A stretch of 64,000 nt of DNA from an uncultured Erythrobacter sp. (lineage in GTDB: Bacteria > Pseudomonadota > Alphaproteobacteria > Sphingomonadales > Sphingomonadaceae). A program made the translations under genes and the position numbers. Under the pieces are notes generated by a model that searched no databases, was not told the DNA's origin, and saw only the letters and a list, made by a program, of their open reading frames with translations. The stretch lies in the NCBI GenBank assembly GCA_947503275.1, contig CANNCZ010000002.1, positions 124,001 to 188,000 on the forward strand. Reading direction: 5' to 3'. This document shows, piece by piece, positions 25,029 to 62,168 of this stretch (position 1 is its first letter; each line of letters begins with the position of its first letter).

Positions 25029-25131
25029 TAGGGGCATTTTTCCGATACAATCCATAGCTTTAAGTCAATCCTTTCGACGGAAAGCCCGTCGAAACTTTCG
25101 ACGCTGTTAAGCTTGGATCCGGGGCAAGTTT

Positions 25132-49552: not shown

Positions 49553-51067
49553 TCACGAAAAAACATCAAAATCACTGTCGAGCTTTATCGGTGCAGACCG
49601 CCTTGGCTTGCCTCGAATATCGGAAATTACATGTTCACCCTCGAGCGCAACGTATTGCTCCGCATCGCAAACGTGGGTGTAAATTGTGTCGGCGATTTCT
49701 AGGTGCCCGCGCGTTTCACCATCGGGCATGTCAGCCTTCCGATAATGATAACCGCCGAGGTGTCCGCGAATGAGGTGCTTGCAGCTGGGATCGACCGCAT
49801 ATCCGCCGCGCTCACTCATACAGCTCCAGATTGCCTCGTTGCGCAGCGATGCCCTGTTAGACTTCGCTTTTCGCACCCGGTGGCCCAATCCTTTTTGAAA
49901 AGCGCGCACCCAATCCATTTCGCTGTCGGCGCGATCAGCTGCCGACCAAGCAGCCGGATCCCCCACAATGCGCAGGTTTTCGGGCTGCAAATTGGGGAAG
50001 TTGTCGGCAATCATGGTGCGGACCATTTGGCCGGCCGCTGTGGGGCCAATTTTCATCAGCGTCTTGCCATCTTCACGCATCATCACCGCCTCGCGCAACG
50101 TGCGGAATTCACCCATCGCCAACCTTTGAGACGCGACGGCGGCCGCAAATAGTCCCTGGTCGAAGCCAACCAGCAATGGCCGCGATGGATCCCATTCGAG
50201 TTCGCGCACATGGTCGCGGTAATCGAATTGCGGGTTGACCGGCTGCCCGTGCTGCATCGGCACAAACTTGTTGTCGATCATCCGCGCGACGTAATCGGGT
50301 TTGTGCTTGTTGGCGGCCGCCTGAATTTGGTAATAGCCTTTCTGCAAATTGTGCAGGTTTTCAGCGTCAGGCTCCCGGCCGCCAGGCTGCAAGAACACCT
50401 CGAGCAATTCGCGACCATCCAAGAGGTCGCGCAGCTCGTCGTCCATTTCGCCCAAGTTTTTGTCGATCGCGAGCTTATAGACCCAATTGTCCATATAGGG
50501 CGCGTTCAGCGAAAGGATGATTTGCGGATCCACCATCAAGTCAACATCGATGCCGCCGCGACCCACACGGCCGGTAAGGAACGATAGCAAGTCACTCGGC
50601 TGCAAATCGGCCTCATCGACCATTACAGCGCACACCTGCCAACCGCGCGTCACTTCCTCAACCGATCGATCCCCGATCGCGCGCATTTCCATTTCAAATT
50701 GGCAAACGTCAGTGGCGTTGCCGTGCTCATCTTCGGCCAAAATCAGTGTGAGTTTGTGCGTGTATGGCTGTTTCCATGTGAATTTTCCGAGGGTTTCGGG
50801 GTAAAGGTCAAACCAGCTCTTAAGAGTGTTCTTCTCGAGGTTTGGGTAGGTTTCACGGATCACACCGACGCGCGCAGTCCGCCACATCACCCCGCGCGCA
50901 TCACGCTTACCACCCTGCTTTTTCGCAACTCTCACCAAAGCGCGGAGAGCCGTCATCGTCTTGGCAGATCCAACCGGGCCAATGATGACCTTGATGAATG
51001 CCCGACTGAGCAAAAACGCATCGGAAATTGGACCCGGCGAGTTTAGCCGGCGCACATCTTCGGTCAT
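49553..51067 (-). CDS. terL: Terminase large subunit
   Basis: Walker A VIIGPVGSAKT; VMVDEADLQP; nuclease region LLVGFDQG. Confidence 0.88.
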   Translation of the reverse strand: MTEDVRRLNSPGPISDAFLLSRAFIKVIIGPVGSAKTMTALRALVRVAKKQGGKRDARGVMWRTARVGVIRETYPNLEKNTLKSWFDLYPETLGKFTWKQPYTHKLTLILAEDEHGNATDVCQFEMEMRAIGDRSVEEVTRGWQVCAVMVDEADLQPSDLLSFLTGRVGRGGIDVDLMVDPQIILSLNAPYMDNWVYKLAIDKNLGEMDDELRDLLDGRELLEVFLQPGGREPDAENLHNLQKGYYQIQAAANKHKPDYVARMIDNKFVPMQHGQPVNPQFDYRDHVRELEWDPSRPLLVGFDQGLFAAAVASQRLAMGEFRTLREAVMMREDGKTLMKIGPTAAGQMVRTMIADNFPNLQPENLRIVGDPAAWSAADRADSEMDWVRAFQKGLGHRVRKAKSNRASLRNEAIWSCMSERGGYAVDPSCKHLIRGHLGGYHYRKADMPDGETRGHLEIADTIYTHVCDAEQYVALEGEHVISDIRGKPRRSAPIKLDSDFDVFS

Positions 51068-51651
51068 TTATCATCCTCTCGATGATCCAAAACCTTTGAC
51101 CGACCCTCAATCGTTCCGGTTCTCGCCTCTTTCATTTCGCCAATCTCTTCGATGACGCGCACGCCCTGGATTGTGTGATCGACTTGCACCGGCTGATCGC
51201 CGTGGAAGATCTTGCGCACACCTTCGGCGCTTCGCAGACGCATACTTTCCGCCTCGAAAATGGTCATTTGCTTGTTGACCGGATCCATTTGGCGGCTGCG
51301 CTCAACCATTTCTTCAGCCGTTTGGGCCATGATCTTCATCATCACCACGGCAGGATCCGGTCCGAACTGGCGCAAATACGCCTGCACATCGCGATTGGCG
51401 CGGTTCTTTGCTCCTTTGGGCCGGCCCTTTTTGCGAATTGCGCGCACATGCCGCTTGATCGACAAAGCGCCAGCATCGATGCCCAGCTCTTCGCGCGCCT
51501 CCAAAACCTCTTCAGCCGTGATCGGCTCGAAAAGATCATCTTGCTCCGCGTCGATTTCTTCGCTGAGCGCCTCATCGATCAGCTTGGCGCTATCCGCCGC
51601 AGCCTTTTCCAAATCGACTTTTCCACCGGCTCCTACGGGGTCAGTTGACAT
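51064..51651 (-). CDS. terS: Terminase small subunit (putative)
   Basis: Upstream of terL with ATGA overlap; KGRPKGAKNR basic motif. Confidence 0.6.
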   Translation of the reverse strand: MSTDPVGAGGKVDLEKAAADSAKLIDEALSEEIDAEQDDLFEPITAEEVLEAREELGIDAGALSIKRHVRAIRKKGRPKGAKNRANRDVQAYLRQFGPDPAVVMMKIMAQTAEEMVERSRQMDPVNKQMTIFEAESMRLRSAEGVRKIFHGDQPVQVDHTIQGVRVIEEIGEMKEARTGTIEGRSKVLDHREDDK

Positions 51652-52285
51652 AAGCACCCCCAGCTCTAGCGTGGCTTTCCTGACCTGCATGGAGCCCGAC
51701 AGCCCCCCACAGTTTCAGAACTTCACCCCGACCCGCTGGCGCTTTCGCGCCTTGGATCGAGACACACACCCTACCCCGACCCGATGCGCCCGCTTCAACT
51801 TTGGCGAGCCTGCGCAATCGTGCACTTCGATCCGCCTGAATATTGATCAGCGCGGTAAAACCCGATCTGAAACCGGATCCAAATTCTGGCTCGGTCCAGC
51901 GACCAGGTGATAGGGATCTGGCCGGGCGCGAATGGGGGCATGGGGGGGTCTGTGGCGCGATGGTGGCCCGCGTGAGCTTTCGAAGCTTACGATCAGCCCT
52001 GTAAAGCCCAGCCTTATCAGCCTGTTGCACCGATCTTTTCGACGCGATCCTTTCGACGCGCCCTCGCTGAGCGCTGAGAAACGGCAGAATTCCGCCATTC
52101 TTGCGGCCGGTGCCAGCTGCGCGCATCGACCCACCAAAAACCCGGAAACTTTCGCCGCCACGCCCGAGATTTAGAGTGTTGATCGACCCGATCAGGCGCA
52201 GCCGCATCGATCCGCGCACCAAATCAGCATATCCACTGCCTAGAATATGCACGCCGTCAGGCTGCACACCACGGCCAAACACAGC

Positions 52286-52533
52286 GGTTCCGCAGCGGAA
52301 CCATGCGGAACCAGCTAGGGAACCAATAACCCTATGAAAACTCAGTATATAATCAATTGGTTCCGTGGTTCCGCTAATTACGCCTCGCGCATATACGCGC
52401 ATGTGCGCACACACACGCACACGCATCAATGTTTGACAGAATGAGCGGAACCATCGGAACCGACCAATAAAGACAGCAATATCAATCACTTGATGGTTCC
52501 TAAAGTGGTTCCGCACGGTTCCGATACGGAACC
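52286..52533. promoter_or_regulatory. Mirror-symmetric 12-box GGAACC/GGTTCC array
   Basis: Starts 52286,297,307,319,359,367,447,456,495,507,517,528; orientations T,A,A,A,T,T|A,A,T,T,T,A (T=GGTTCC, A=GGAACC). Confidence 0.95.
52386..52426. repeat. 41-bp alternating purine-pyrimidine (Z-DNA-prone) tract
   Basis: CGCGCATATACGCGCATGTGCGCACACACACGCACACGCAT, strictly alternating. Confidence 0.95.
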
Positions 52534-52664
52534 ACCCCCCGGACCCACCACGCGCCAGAATTCGGCTGCACAAATCTTGGCATCCCAAACGGGCCGGGGT
52601 CAGGGATAGGGACGCGAGCGGGGCATATTTGAACTGTGATATTGATAGTGTGCACGTGCCCGTC

Positions 52665-52686
52665 GCAGCCGCTTTGCGGCCGCTGC
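52665..52686 (+). terminator. Possible intrinsic terminator hairpin
   Basis: GCAGCCGC-TTT-GCGGCCGCTGC (3-nt bulge), T-rich sequence further downstream. Confidence 0.35.
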
Positions 52687-52752
52687 ACGCGCGCGTTTCT
52701 TGTTTTAATTCAATGCTCAAGCATTGAATGCCTGAATATTTGATGAAAGAGC

Positions 52753-52787
52753 TTGACAGCCTTGTTAGTGCCGCTTTATAGGCACTA
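52753..52787 (+). promoter_or_regulatory. sigma70-like promoter for ardC with overlapping operator palindrome
   Basis: TTGACA (52753-52758), 17 bp, TTATAG (52776-52781); TAGTGCC-N8-GGCACTA at 52766-52787. Confidence 0.6.
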
Positions 52788-52837
52788 TTAGAGCGCAGGC
52801 ATTTGGGCCGCGCTAAGGTCAGAAAGGACCAGACACG

Positions 52838-53785
52838 ATGGCTAAGATCGACACTTACGAGACTGTCACCAACAGCATTATTCACCAGCTCGAGGCCGGG
52901 ACCAAACCATGGGTTTGCGATTGGGCCACTGGCGGAATTCAAATGCCGCACCGCGTCACTGGCGACATGTATCGCGGCATCAACGTGGTTTTGCTTTGGA
53001 TGGCGGCGCAAGAAAACCGCCTCACCGGCCGCACATGGATGACCTTTAAGCAAGCGAGCAGCCTTGGCGCGAAGGTCCGCAAGGGATCCAAAGGCACGCG
53101 CATCGTGTTCTTTAAGAAAATCGATGTGAAGGACCGCAACGCCAGCGATGCTGACGCTACTGTGCAAATTCCGATGCTCCGCACTTACACAGTGTTCAAC
53201 AGCGACCAGATCGACGATTTGCCCGCCAAGTATGCAACGCCAATCGTGCAGCCAAACCCCAGCATTGAACGGGACCGGGTGAACGAAGCCGCATTGCGTT
53301 CTAGCGGCGCCCAAATCACCGAAGGCGGCGCAAGCGCTCATTACACGCCCAGCACTGACATTGTGACCATGCCGGATTTTGAGCGCTTCACCAGCTCTAG
53401 CGGCTATCTTGCCACGCTTGCCCATGAGCTTTGCCACTGGACTGGCCACAAATCGCGGCATGATCGCTTTGGCCACAACAGCAAGGCAGATCGTGCCAGC
53501 TACGCTTTCGAAGAGTTGGTAGCGGAAATGGGCGCGGCGTTCATCGGCTCGCAACTCGGCATTGTTGGCGAGCATATCGAAAACCACAGCGCTTATCTGT
53601 CGCATTGGCTTAAGGTTTTGAAAGAGGACAAGCGCGCCATTTTCCGCGCTGCCAGCCTTGCCCAAGCGGCCGCCGATATGGTGCTGGCTAACGCTGGCGA
53701 GCTGCCTACGCTCGAGGGCGAGGAACCGACCACGGAGAGCATCAAACCCGCTCCGGTGATGTTGCAAGCCGAACTGGCACTTTGA
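52838..53785 (+). CDS. ardC: ArdC-like antirestriction protein (ssDNA-binding N-domain + zincin)
   Basis: N-terminal KPWVCDW...GINVVLLW...FKQASSLGAKVRKGSKG; HELCHWTGHKSRHDR (HExxH). Confidence 0.88.
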   Translation: MAKIDTYETVTNSIIHQLEAGTKPWVCDWATGGIQMPHRVTGDMYRGINVVLLWMAAQENRLTGRTWMTFKQASSLGAKVRKGSKGTRIVFFKKIDVKDRNASDADATVQIPMLRTYTVFNSDQIDDLPAKYATPIVQPNPSIERDRVNEAALRSSGAQITEGGASAHYTPSTDIVTMPDFERFTSSSGYLATLAHELCHWTGHKSRHDRFGHNSKADRASYAFEELVAEMGAAFIGSQLGIVGEHIENHSAYLSHWLKVLKEDKRAIFRAASLAQAAADMVLANAGELPTLEGEEPTTESIKPAPVMLQAELAL

Positions 53786-53896
53786 CCATCCCCGCAGCCG
53801 CTTGGAGCGATCCGAGCGGCTATAGGGAAGGCCATCAAGCCCCCCATCAAAAGCGCCGGCACAGGGCCGCGCTAGGTCGATGAAAGGACCAGACAA

Positions 53897-54235
53897 ATGG
53901 ACACTTACAAAGTCATAGTGGATAGCGGCTTGCCAAGCGGGACGCGCGCAATCGGTTGCGGCTGCGATGCCGAAAACACAATCAGCGATCTTACCGCCAT
54001 TGGCGACGCCATACTTACGCCTAGCGATCCGTCGCCGGCCGGCCGCTGCACGCATTGCGGTTGCTTGGCCTATGCCGAAACCGAATTGCTGAAAATGGAG
54101 CGCGCCGCGCCATCTATGCTTTCCGCGTTGAAGCAAGCCGAATTGTTTATGGCGGGTTTTGAAGACTGCGACGCGCAAGAAGATATGGCCGCGCTCGAGG
54201 CCGTGCGCGACGCCATCACGAAAGCGGAGGGCTAA
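53897..54235 (+). CDS. Small early phage protein with CxxC motif
   Basis: CTHCGC zinc-knuckle-like; shares leader with ardC. Confidence 0.6.
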   Translation: MDTYKVIVDSGLPSGTRAIGCGCDAENTISDLTAIGDAILTPSDPSPAGRCTHCGCLAYAETELLKMERAAPSMLSALKQAELFMAGFEDCDAQEDMAALEAVRDAITKAEG

Positions 54236-54238
54236 GCC

Positions 54239-54517
54239 ATGAACCAATTCACAGCCTACACCCCGCGCGATGGCGACACCATCCACTTGCGCTTTGAAAG
54301 ATTGCCCGAACGAACCGGCCGCTATGTCTTGGGCATTCACCGCGACGGTGCGCGCGCCAGTTTGACCCGGTGCGCCACGAACCGAAAAACCTTTGTTGAT
54401 ATCGAAAGGCTGATTGAGCTTTACGACGCGGGCACTTTGACACCGATAGACGCCGTGCAACTCGAGCGCGATGCGCAGATGCGCTTGCGCTTCACCAGCA
54501 ACACTAAGGAGGCTTGA
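54239..54517 (+). CDS. Small early phage protein
   Basis: 92 aa, SD sequence, co-directional. Confidence 0.55.
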   Translation: MNQFTAYTPRDGDTIHLRFERLPERTGRYVLGIHRDGARASLTRCATNRKTFVDIERLIELYDAGTLTPIDAVQLERDAQMRLRFTSNTKEA

Positions 54518-54520
54518 GCC

Positions 54521-54802
54521 ATGATTGACGACAAAACCGGACAACTGATTGAGGCAGGCGCGTGCCTTTGGGAAGCGTACTTGGACAAAACAATTTCGGT
54601 TACAGCGCTTGCAGCCGCAGATGAATGGCGGGAAAGTCAGGGCACAAGCTCTTTGCGCTTGATGATTTTGAACCAAGCCGAAAACTGCCATAACGCTTGG
54701 TGGGCGCTTCATAAAGATGCGCGAATGGACGAGCCTTTCGATTGGGAATTCTGCCCGCAATTTCTTTCCAACTGGATCGAAAAAGGTGGGCTTACTCAAT
54801 AA
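54521..54802 (+). CDS. Small early phage protein
   Basis: 93 aa, AGGAGG SD. Confidence 0.55.
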   Translation: MIDDKTGQLIEAGACLWEAYLDKTISVTALAAADEWRESQGTSSLRLMILNQAENCHNAWWALHKDARMDEPFDWEFCPQFLSNWIEKGGLTQ

Positions 54803-54828
54803 GCGCATAGACGAACGGGCCGGGGTAA

Positions 54829-56832
54829 TCATACTTCGGCCCCTTCGCATTCTTCATCAAACCAACGCTTGAGCGTTTTCTCTTTGCTCGCGTTGGGCAG
54901 CTGCTCTTCATCGAACACATGGCACAGCGGCACACACACCGCCGATAGCTTGCGCCGGCCGAACGCGACCTTGCGCGCACGCACCGCCATCGGGAACCGC
55001 TCAAGCACAGCGTCATAAATCTCTGCCCAGCCTTGCTGCGATCCCTGAAACAGATGCGCCAGCGCAGCTTGCCCAGGAGCGATAGCCAGGAAGCCAGGGA
55101 AGTCCTTATCGAACGCCTGTGTGCCCCACCGCTTGCCTTTGTCCTTTTTCACCCGGCCTTCGGTATCGAGCTCTTCGTCATAGAACGTGCAATTGACCAG
55201 CTTAAGGCCATACTGCCCTAACCGCTCATTGATGCGCTTGCCGGCATCTGGATCGCGCAGCGGCTCAATAGCGTGATCGAGAGCATCGCCAATCCAAGTG
55301 GCCAGCGCCACGCGCTCATCGCCGCCGCGCGCCTGCACCTGCGCACCCAATAGATGATCGAGGCAATCTGCGTGCTGCGGCCGCTCTTGCGCAATCTCAC
55401 GCATCCGCTCGGGCCGGCACATATCCGCCCAATGCAACACATCTTCGTAATCGGGCAGGCCATCCGGCGTGTCGTGATCGTGGATCAACACATCAGCACA
55501 TGCCAACAGAGTGCCAAACTGGTCGCAAGCGCGGCCGTCATGCCCCGCTTGTCGCAACGCTTCGTGATACTTGGCTTTGGTCGCCGCTAATCGCGCCCAC
55601 CCGTCGACCATGCGCCGCAACAGCTTGCGGCCGATGGTCGGGAGATTGTACGCCTCGAGGCTCGGCTCGCCCGCCCAATCGGCAGGAAACGGCATCAACT
55701 CACCAATCGCAAGGCGGCTTTTGTCTTGCGCTGGCATCGATGGAATATTGATCGATGAAAACAGGAACGAACTGCGGATCGAAAATTCGTGCGCATTGTG
55801 ATCCTGCCCGCCACGGTGGCCTTTGTCGCCTGTGAACGAAAGCCGCATCAGCTCAATCACATCGTTAACCTTGCGATTGTCAGCGGATGCCTCAATTTCA
55901 TCGACCAGAACCGGCACTGTCGCTTGACCTAGGCTCTGCCGGATCGCTGCCCCGGTTGCGTTTGCGGTGCGGAAACAACCCCGGCCAAGCAGCTGGTGAA
56001 GAGCCTTACCTTCGCCGTTCAAATGCGATTTGCCCGTGCCGCGTCCTCCGGTTAGCCAGATATTGGGACGAACCGGCAGCGCACCGCCCACCAACGCACT
56101 ACCAAGCCAACCCAGCAACAGGCGAGGATCTAGGAGAGAGCGCCGCCAATTCCACGTCCTAAACAGGCCCGGCAATCCATCACGGCCAATTTGGCCCGAT
56201 ATCAAAAGCGCCGCGGCTTCCGGTCCAACCGGGTCAGGCCATGGGCGGGGGATAGGATCATCCCCGGCATAGACGAAATCACCCAGCACGCCGCAACTCG
56301 CCCAATTCCACCGGCGCAATTCGCCTTCAAGGGTATGGTCGGAATGCAGGATCTTATCGCCACAATGCAGCGCAAGCCCGCCTGCATCATGCCGATGCGC
56401 TCCCCGGCCGCGCTTGCGATCTGCGGAACTGAACCGCCCGCGCCGCACACATTCACCAATCAACGCGGCCGTTGCTTCGGCTTGATCCCATCCAATGATT
56501 TCAGAAGCGCGATCTTTCGTCGGCTTCGACCACTTGGGGAACTGCTCTTCCAACCATTCTTCGTCACCGAACAGCGCGACCATGCCGTTTTTGCCGTGGC
56601 GATTATTTGCCTCGAGGCCGACCAGCTGCTTGTTGCGGTCTAGGTAAAAGCATGTTTGCTTACCATCCTCTGTGGATCGAATGCCCAGCGGCACAATCGG
56701 GCAGCTTTTCCAATCAATCGGCAACTTGCGCTGCTTGCCCTTTTCGGGTGTCGCATCGCCTTCTTGCGCCATTGTCGGTGCGTCCTTTGGATTGTCGAGC
56801 GCATCCTTGATTGAGGCAACACCATCGGTCAT
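54829..56832 (-). CDS. P-loop replication helicase/ATPase
   Basis: Walker A GGRGTGKS; VPVLVDEIEAS; ATG overlaps upstream stop. Confidence 0.72.
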   Translation of the reverse strand: MTDGVASIKDALDNPKDAPTMAQEGDATPEKGKQRKLPIDWKSCPIVPLGIRSTEDGKQTCFYLDRNKQLVGLEANNRHGKNGMVALFGDEEWLEEQFPKWSKPTKDRASEIIGWDQAEATAALIGECVRRGRFSSADRKRGRGAHRHDAGGLALHCGDKILHSDHTLEGELRRWNWASCGVLGDFVYAGDDPIPRPWPDPVGPEAAALLISGQIGRDGLPGLFRTWNWRRSLLDPRLLLGWLGSALVGGALPVRPNIWLTGGRGTGKSHLNGEGKALHQLLGRGCFRTANATGAAIRQSLGQATVPVLVDEIEASADNRKVNDVIELMRLSFTGDKGHRGGQDHNAHEFSIRSSFLFSSINIPSMPAQDKSRLAIGELMPFPADWAGEPSLEAYNLPTIGRKLLRRMVDGWARLAATKAKYHEALRQAGHDGRACDQFGTLLACADVLIHDHDTPDGLPDYEDVLHWADMCRPERMREIAQERPQHADCLDHLLGAQVQARGGDERVALATWIGDALDHAIEPLRDPDAGKRINERLGQYGLKLVNCTFYDEELDTEGRVKKDKGKRWGTQAFDKDFPGFLAIAPGQAALAHLFQGSQQGWAEIYDAVLERFPMAVRARKVAFGRRKLSAVCVPLCHVFDEEQLPNASKEKTLKRWFDEECEGAEV

Positions 56833-57884
56833 GCGGCAGCATCCCTCAATTTACACCAAGCGCTCACGCAAATGCCTACATCGGCATCGGTGCGCAGCCT
56901 TTCGCACTGTTCACAAAAACGCTTGGCCCCGGATTTAACCGCGTCATAACGATCAAGCGGTGCATCCTTTGGCCCGGATCGAACCAACTGCGGCGCTGGC
57001 TTTCTCAATGCGACTTTCCGCGCGGGCGTCACGACACCGGCCATTGCATTGCGCACCGCCCTTTCGAAACTAACCACGACACTGAGTTGCGGGTGATGCG
57101 ATTGCTCAACAATCGCGGCTGCGCGCCACTCTTCCTGTGTTTTGGAGCCGAGTTTAGCGCGAATTTTGGCCAGCTGCTCTTCGGAAACAACATTGCCCCG
57201 CGCGGTCGAACACAGGGCCACGATGCCGGGAAACAGGGTTCCGGCGTATCGCAGAGATTGACCGGCAAAGGCTTGCTGCAAAGTGACAAGCGCCGCTTTG
57301 GTTATCGCCTCGCCCTTACGTCGCCAGCTGCGCTCTAACCCGCCGATGCAGCCAATCGTATCAAAACCCCAAAACTTCCAATTGGTGTGCGCTGCCAGCT
57401 GCAATCCTGCATCGGCAATCGCATCGCGGAGCGCGATTGCTGCTTCGTCTCCGCTCGCCAGTTTGCCTTTGAACTTATCAAGCGAGGTCAGCGCATTTCG
57501 CTTTGTGTTGATCGCCGTGAATGCAGCCGCTTCTTGCTGCAAATCTTCATATTCACCAACGATACAAGGCAATTCGTCGATATCACCGCGCAGCTTGGCC
57601 GCTTCAAATCGGTGTTGACCATCGATCACATACAGCTTGCCGTCGCGCCGCGACACAACCAGCACTTGGCACAAATCCCACCGCCATTGCGCGGCTATTT
57701 GCCTGATCAACGATTGGCTTTCACGGCTTTCGATTGATCGCTGATACGCCGCGTCAATGTGCAGCTGCGCTGGCGCGACGAATTCCAACGCGGGCTTAGC
57801 GCCCATCGCTGGCTTCATTACTTCTTTGTCGAATGCGATTTCCGTCATCACGCAGCCTCCTGATTTTGGAGCGCGCGCACCCAA
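56829..57884 (-). CDS. ParB-like N-terminal domain protein (DUF6551-type)
   Basis: VDAAYQRS-like LHIDAAYQRSIESRESQSLIRQIA; VIDGQHRFEAAKLRG. Confidence 0.75.
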   Translation of the reverse strand: MGARAPKSGGCVMTEIAFDKEVMKPAMGAKPALEFVAPAQLHIDAAYQRSIESRESQSLIRQIAAQWRWDLCQVLVVSRRDGKLYVIDGQHRFEAAKLRGDIDELPCIVGEYEDLQQEAAAFTAINTKRNALTSLDKFKGKLASGDEAAIALRDAIADAGLQLAAHTNWKFWGFDTIGCIGGLERSWRRKGEAITKAALVTLQQAFAGQSLRYAGTLFPGIVALCSTARGNVVSEEQLAKIRAKLGSKTQEEWRAAAIVEQSHHPQLSVVVSFERAVRNAMAGVVTPARKVALRKPAPQLVRSGPKDAPLDRYDAVKSGAKRFCEQCERLRTDADVGICVSAWCKLRDAAA

Positions 57885-59008
57885 TCATTGATATCTTTAA
57901 CCGGCTTGCCGCTCACCTTTTCAGGTGGGAAAACCAGCTGGCATTTGACGCCGCGCGCTTGTTGTTGTCCAATAACCCGCTCGAGGCCGGCCGTGTTGGG
58001 TTGCCCGTCTGCATCCACGTCGCGATCTGCCACAATGACGAGGGGCCCGCATTGCTCCGGCAATATGATGGCGCCCATATTTCCCAGGCTGATCGAGCAG
58101 ATGATGCGCGCCTCTGGCTTGATCATGCGCACGGCCACGGCATCTTCGGGGCCTTCGCAAACATAGATCGGCTCGCCTTCGGGCATATCGTGCATCGACT
58201 TGCCGCTGGCCCCCTTGTTAATCGGGATAAACCCGCCCCACTGGTTGCCAAGGATCCTCTTGCGGTATCCGTTGCGCTCTTTTTTGCTCAGATCAGGCGG
58301 CACAGCTATTCCGCGCCAACCGGTCAAAAACCGCTCAAGATAGACGCGGTGCGTGCCATGATATTTGCCAGTGGGCAGATAGACACAGCACAGCATAGCC
58401 GGGTGTTTGCGCTGGGTTGGATCATGCCAGATCATCGGATGAAACCGCAGCGAACCGGGCCATTTACCCAATGGCCCTTTGCCAAGGCCACGGCCGCGCA
58501 AATACTCTGCCGCGCCGCTGCCATTCATGGCTTCGCCCGATAGAAACAAACCTTTTGACTTTTTCGCTTTTGTCGCACGGCGCTTTTGGTCTTGGCGGTG
58601 CAGCTCTTCGGCGCGCGCCTTGGCTTCGGCCGCACGGCGCTGCCTTTCCTCCTGGCTGACTTGGCGGCGCTCGCCGCTTGATGGCCGGCCCAGGCGACGG
58701 CGCGCTTCGTCAAACGCATCTGCCGCACTTAGGCCCAGCTTTAAGCGCAGAAGATCCAGCATATCGCCTTTCTCTTCGCCTGCGGCGCAATTGCCGGCAT
58801 CGATCCAACGCCCCATCTTTGGACCGCTCAAATGGACCCATGCGCTTTCGCTTTGGCCATTGTCGGGGATGCCCGAAAACATCCATTTCTCGCCAGCGCG
58901 CCGACCATTCGGCAACAATTCAACAGCAAGGCTTTGCGCCAATGCGTTCAATGCACCCGTTAACTCGGCGGTGTCATCGATGTATTGGGGATCGCTCATT
59001 TGGGGCAC
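57848..59008 (-). CDS. Toprim-domain (primase-like) protein
   Basis: IYVCEGPEDAVAVRMI...LVIVADRDVDADGQPNTAG. Confidence 0.8.
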   Translation of the reverse strand: MPQMSDPQYIDDTAELTGALNALAQSLAVELLPNGRRAGEKWMFSGIPDNGQSESAWVHLSGPKMGRWIDAGNCAAGEEKGDMLDLLRLKLGLSAADAFDEARRRLGRPSSGERRQVSQEERQRRAAEAKARAEELHRQDQKRRATKAKKSKGLFLSGEAMNGSGAAEYLRGRGLGKGPLGKWPGSLRFHPMIWHDPTQRKHPAMLCCVYLPTGKYHGTHRVYLERFLTGWRGIAVPPDLSKKERNGYRKRILGNQWGGFIPINKGASGKSMHDMPEGEPIYVCEGPEDAVAVRMIKPEARIICSISLGNMGAIILPEQCGPLVIVADRDVDADGQPNTAGLERVIGQQQARGVKCQLVFPPEKVSGKPVKDINDWVRALQNQEAA

Positions 59009-61741: not shown

Positions 61742-61899
61742 GCTGGCAGGATTTTGCCGACGACGCGCGAGCTAAGTTGGAAAAAAGATTGTTAAACCAC
61801 GATGAGGAATTCGTGCGCACAAGCATCGCAATGTTTGGCGTACCCAGTGTCGCAGTCGAACGCCTCGCCAGAGCGATGGAAGAGAAGGCGAAGAAATGA
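61738..61899 (+). CDS. Small hypothetical phage protein
   Basis: 53 aa, ATGA overlaps on both sides. Confidence 0.5.
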
Positions 61900-62168
61900 G
61901 CGGACCAGGACACAATTCAGGCGACAAATCAGAAGCCACCGCAACCGATGATCGCTTGCGCTTGCTGATCGAGCGGATCGAGCGGCTCGAGGAAGAGAAA
62001 AAGGGCATCGCCGACGATATCCGCGACGTTTACGCCGAAGCGAAAGCCGTGGGTTACGACACCAAAATCACCCGCCAAATCGTGCGCCTGCGCAAAATGA
62101 AACCCGACGAACGGAGCGAAATGGAAACGGTTCTGGAAATCTACAAAGCCGCGCTGGGGATGGGGTGA
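61896..62168 (+). CDS. DUF2312 / GapR-like DNA-binding protein
   Basis: [45 protein letters not shown]. Confidence 0.85.

Follow-up and report, generated by a model that had tools for sequence, protein, structure and literature searches.

A mirror-symmetric twelve-box array as the probable replication origin of a temperate Erythrobacter phage, and the D5-type helicase proposed to read it

An array of twelve short boxes with mirrored spacing and orientation, found inside a 40-kb prophage of an uncultured Erythrobacter sp., is very probably the replication origin of this temperate phage and appears to be read by the phage's own D5-type helicase, here termed Hel667. We base this assignment on comparative sequence analysis: the array layout is kept across related phages, the helicase has the fold expected of an initiator, box and helicase sequences covary down to single residues, IHF sites are enriched within the array, and arrays accompany D5 helicases even in phages with unrelated terminases. 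Conservation itself indicates that the array is functional.

Geometry of the array and its place in the prophage

The stretch of DNA analyzed (64,000 nucleotides, hereafter the window) corresponds to C2:124001-188000 of a 3.4-Mb genome in three contigs. An earlier note, made from the letters of the window, had pointed to twelve copies of GGAACC/GGTTCC within 248 bp, mirrored in both spacing and orientation. Recounting the boxes on the window sequence gave the same number (n=12, 52286-52533), and after listing the positions anew, both symmetries proved to be exactly as described. The boxes of the left arm start at 52286 (-), 52297 (+), 52307 (+), 52319 (+), 52359 (-) and 52367 (-), and those of the right arm at 52447 (+), 52456 (+), 52495 (-), 52507 (-), 52517 (-) and 52528 (+), resulting in start-to-start spacings of 11, 10, 12, 40, 8, 80, 9, 39, 12, 10 and 11 and in an exact reverse-complement symmetry of orientations. 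In simulated sequences of third-order Markov composition (40 x 64 kb), the most crowded 6-mer reached 5-7 copies per 248 bp and never more than 7, as compared to 12 in the window. The extended consensus GCGGAACCA proposed in the earlier note held only in part. CGGAACC is present in 10/12 boxes and GGAACCA in 9/12, whereas the first G of GCGGAACCA occurs in only 6/12.

Read from left to right, the array begins with an outer cluster of four boxes spaced 10-12 bp apart (52286-52324), a cluster that recurs in related arrays, followed by an AT-rich 40-bp gap (52325-52358) and an inner box pair on the minus strand (52359-52372). The gap carries an IHF-like site with one mismatch at ~52351-52363, which overlaps the next box. 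The central core contains 41 nt of purine/pyrimidine alternation without a break (52386-52426). On the right side, the inner pair (52447-52461, plus strand) and the outer cluster of four boxes (52495-52533) flank a second gap harboring an exact IHF consensus, TATCAATCACTTG (WATCAANNNNTTR), at 52480-52492 on the plus strand. Both the alternating run and the IHF-consensus sites are additions to the features recorded in the earlier note. Searched as DNA against phages, the array region gave no match.

A 17-bp direct repeat, AATCCTTTCGACGGAAA, is located at 25067-25083 and at 65511 (window scale; C2:189511), the two copies being 40.4 kb apart, and a divergent tyrosine-integrase gene (~63859-65238), which crosses the right window edge, lies near the right end of this interval. 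The repeat probably represents attL and attR of a ~40-kb prophage. The array resides in its interior, at distances of 27 and 13 kb from the two candidate ends, between the replication genes encoding primase and Hel667 and the terminase genes terS and terL. Hel667, a protein of 667 residues that we propose as box reader based on fold and covariation, is encoded at 54829-56832 on the minus strand. A Toprim primase (DUF7146 + Toprim_3; 57848-59008, minus strand), conserved together with the helicase, would be its replication partner. On the opposite side, the array adjoins the gene of the TerS-position protein (51064-51690, minus strand), whose predicted structure is of low confidence. In this copy, an accessory cassette comprising an ArdC anti-restriction protein and three small ORFs (52838-54802, plus strand) separates the array from the helicase gene; its homologs are confined to few loci, those of ArdC to only 6 others. 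The array and the ArdC gene are both crossed in antisense by an open frame of 1069 aa (51641-54850, minus strand), apparently a spurious GC-rich ORF. The early region of the prophage also encodes a GapR-like DNA-binding protein (61896-62168, plus strand; Pfam PF10073, 3e-34).

Conservation in related and distant phages

Relatives were gathered by TerL and Hel667 searches, yielding ~180 loci in partly overlapping sets; homologous loci stem from Altererythrobacter, Novosphingobium, Sphingomonas and Aurantiacibacter, among others. An array is present in nearly all TerS-bearing loci that extend far enough upstream of terS. The earlier note had suggested searching related prophages at this position, and both the layout and the spacing symmetry recur there. 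Across ~60 dereplicated arrays, the common layout comprises four boxes 10-12 bp apart, a ~40-bp gap, a pair at 8-9 bp and a ~80-bp centre, followed by the mirror image, with a box missing or extra in many arrays. As that note had expected of homologous prophages, the boxes stay and the spacers diverge. The box sequence itself varies by phage and includes GGAACC, GCAACC, AGAACC, GTAACA/G, GGAACA, GGAAGT and others.

The internal features of the array are likewise shared. In 61 dereplicated arrays, a set including one false array delivered by the finder (at locus L020), purine/pyrimidine alternation in the central 40 bp reaches 0.81-0.82 of steps versus ~0.5 in the surroundings, and the 40-bp gaps are AT-rich. 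The AT content of the central 40 bp is ~0.34 in GC-rich phages, and the centre is AT-rich in the distant phages phi1422 and Acjo_20 described below. For IHF sites, L020 was left out, and the exact consensus was found in 10/60 left gaps, where shuffles give 0. Allowing one mismatch, sites were present in 34/60 left gaps compared to 1.6 in shuffles, and in 19 right gaps compared to 3.6. The other stretches exhibited no IHF-site excess of this order.

With regard to gene order, TerL-related phages carry the array 75-1268 bp upstream of terS, in keeping with the location given in the earlier note, also in cases in which kilobases separate it from the helicase gene. Many phages have 170-600 bp between array and helicase gene; the window has 2.4 kb, and distances elsewhere reach 6.7 kb. 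In a locus of rearranged order (L162, 1371-8538), array and terS remain together, and the genes for primase, helicase and TerL follow downstream of them. The false-array locus L020 has neither array nor helicase, and its prophage appears to start just upstream of terS. The persistent closeness of array and terS may simply reflect where the replication module meets the packaging module, or may point to a second role in packaging. Another locus of odd gene order (L179, 901-6710) carries a 12-box GCGAAC array and a D5 helicase with a capsid-like gene in between, and no terminase genes were recognisable on its contig.

Arrays also accompany distant D5 helicases in isolated phages. Bdellovibrio phage phi1422 has 12 GGTAAC boxes with mirrored orientation and spacings of 9, 10, 14, 64, 8, 89, 8, 64, 14, 10 and 9. 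This perfect mirror array begins 11 bp past the primase-helicase gene and 7 kb from terS, and the phi1422 terminase genes gave no match to the TerL or TerS profile of the window-type phages. The phrase "origin of replication" does not occur in the paper describing phi1422. In Acinetobacter phage Acjo_20, the array lies directly upstream of the helicase gene and ~4 kb from terS on the circular map. Weaker or less regular arrays were detected in Synechococcus phage S-H1, Serratia phage MQ-4 and Pseudomonas phage ZRG1, and none in the stretches searched of Microcystis phage Mwe-JY13 and Bordetella phage PHB04.

Covariation of the boxes with Hel667

The earlier note had proposed selection for protein binding, a view strengthened by the persistence of the boxes across related arrays and by a box sequence that appears to track the helicase. 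In Mantel tests of box distance against protein distance, in which phylogeny is not fully corrected, the correlation was highest for Hel667 (0.60), followed by TerL (0.42), primase (0.42) and TerS (0.27), and the TerS-box correlation vanished given Hel667. When each protein was tested given the other three (partial Mantel, 50 loci, again with phylogeny not fully corrected), Hel667 retained a value of 0.347 (p 0.001), compared to 0.12 for TerL, 0.06 for primase and -0.09 for TerS. The protein that covaries with the box was missing from the candidates of the earlier note, which had listed, among others, TerS, the ParB-like protein and Cro/CI-like proteins as potential binders; none of these three is borne out by the data, as detailed for each below.

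Among 1548 columns of the four proteins, the three most informative on box positions 2-3 are Hel667 S630, E506 and K621 (ranks 1-3). At residue 630, 12/12 AGAACC phages have T or N and 8/8 GCAACC phages have R; at residue 621, all AGAACC phages have K and all GCAACC phages have T/A. In the close pairs L064/L068 and L065/L075, the box and residues 621/630 switch together; for L064/L068, the boxes differ even though TerL is 90% identical and TerS nearly the same. A held-out AGAACC locus that was not used in finding the rule (L186) carries K and T, as predicted. In the Hel667 of the window, residue 630 is S, which sets it apart from the other GG-class phages. According to the secondary structure of the model, both residues sit in a C-terminal winged-helix-like element, and we regard K621 and S630 as candidate specificity residues.

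The AlphaFold model of Hel667 is confident (pLDDT 89.6), and its Foldseek matches are D5-type SF3 helicases, namely SaPI PriRep1, the SaPI5 primase-helicase, AsfvPrimPol and poxvirus D5. Judged by this predicted fold, Hel667 is a D5/SaPI-Rep-like SF3 helicase, while its sequence has no detectable relation to solved structures.

Origin model, rival readings and known systems

In the proposed mechanism, Hel667 would bind the boxes via its C-terminal winged helix and assemble on the two mirror-image arms, each offering six boxes. IHF would bend the 40-bp gap of each arm, such that the four outer and two inner boxes meet, plausibly accommodating one hexamer per arm, with the two assemblies opposed on either side of the core. 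DNA would then open at the alternating tract in the centre or next to it, with synthesis starting with the phage Toprim primase. Binding by Hel667, hexamer stoichiometry, opening site and origin function are what we infer from the patterns above. Several points run counter to the origin reading: the tie of the array to terS, including in L162, the centre that is not AT-rich in GC-rich phages, the S630 exception, and Mwe-JY13 and PHB04 having no array in the stretch searched. GC skew exhibited a small difference of the wrong sign, giving no support for bidirectional replication.

Initially, we favored a packaging site bound by TerS, owing to the position of the array and its IHF sites. P1 pac combines hexamer clusters, placed on both sides of a centre and near a terminase gene, with IHF, and by analogy, TerS would bind both box clusters, IHF would bend the DNA and terminase would cut the centre. 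The constant vicinity to terS, preserved in L162, fits this scheme. However, TerS does not covary with the box sequence once the helicase is accounted for, L064 and L068 combine near-same TerS and TerL with different boxes, and the arrays of phi1422 and Acjo_20 adjoin D5 helicases kilobases from terS. Because of the covariation and these two phages, we rejected the packaging site, which we now consider improbable. Even less probable is a super-operator, on which a phage repressor would control either the late or the divergent accessory operon. The array is intergenic, in this copy lies between the leftward terS and the rightward ArdC gene, and has Cro/CI-like genes nearby, but in most relatives the flanking genes are co-directional, the covariation of the box with Cro/CI-like proteins is weak (two noisy alignments), and this reading would leave unexplained why arrays accompany D5 helicases in other phages.

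Two further readings strike us as highly improbable. A partition centromere would be bound by the ParB-like DUF6551 protein encoded nearby at 56829-57884, and P1 parS likewise combines boxes with IHF; DUF6551 homologs, however, occur in only 2 other loci whereas arrays are near-universal, and the element appears to be an integrated prophage. An attP of a tyrosine integrase would carry arm-type sites and IHF sites, and the array recalls lambda attP in outline by its size, its IHF sites and its repeated short boxes. Yet the array is intact inside the integrated prophage, which argues against an attachment site, and both the integrase gene and the likely att repeat lie elsewhere. A protelomerase site, considered for the alternating centre, was also set aside; the prophage lies within a 1.5-Mb contig.

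For the origin reading, the closest known counterpart is the pri-rep-ori module of SaPIs and PICIs. There, primase and helicase genes are followed by an origin of two short-iteron sets (Ubeda 2007 as cited in PMC7581432; PMC6092414), box reading is assigned to the C-terminal domain, and terS sometimes follows (PMC7581432; PMC6092414); by fold, the initiator is likewise a D5-like SF3 helicase. Every PICI origin comprises two iteron sets flanking an AT-rich region, and the module is arranged as pri-rep-ori, in some cases with terS next (PMC6092414). Iterons had aptly been named as an analogue in the earlier note. Two iteron-like sets, one per arm, are found in ~60 arrays. Because the AT-rich centre, when tested, was not found in GC-rich phages, where the core is purine/pyrimidine-alternating, we do not class the array as a PICI origin proper. 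Further differences are the full-size phages, the strict 6+6 mirror geometry, the IHF sites in the gaps, and the sequence of Hel667 with its lack of detectable relation to solved structures. The array most likely works like PICI/SaPI and P4 origins, in an unusually regular dyad form that is far more regular than the SaPI/PICI-satellite origins.

More tentatively, and at somewhat less than even chances in our estimate, the arrays may define a widespread class of phage origins, built as a platform on which two SF3 hexamers would load head to head. This platform would consist of six sites per arm, gaps bent by IHF and the alternating core, and a simple recognition code (621, 630) would drift along with the boxes. 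If true, this class would also put the PICI replication module in full-size phages. A similar module in dozens of full-size phages, in Sphingomonadales and beyond, bears on the source of satellite replication modules. The near-fixed geometry together with drifting, covarying boxes provides a natural data set on DNA reading by SF3 initiators and on origin set-up. The recognition code is directly testable, and the layout offers a rule by which origins may be located in unannotated phages.

The alpha/ori/crr system of phage P4 shares with the array an initiator helicase and box clusters directly 3' of its gene. In P4 (L198; 4314-4405, 9310-9413), the annotated type 1 repeats in crr follow the order + + (9 bp), 43 bp, - - (18 bp), + (14 bp), which is similar but not identical to one arm of the array. 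P4 differs in that its repeats form two elements apart from each other, whose units are arranged in tandem and not as mirror images, and the sequence similarity detected is limited to the Walker A region; a profile comparison of Hel667 with P4 alpha aligned only 44 columns around this motif (probability 16). SV40 T antigen and papillomavirus E1 are SF3 initiators acting on dyad-arranged short sites, which are fewer than in the array. Their origins are recognized by an N-terminal domain (PMC7581432), whereas the box-reading signal in Hel667 is C-terminal.
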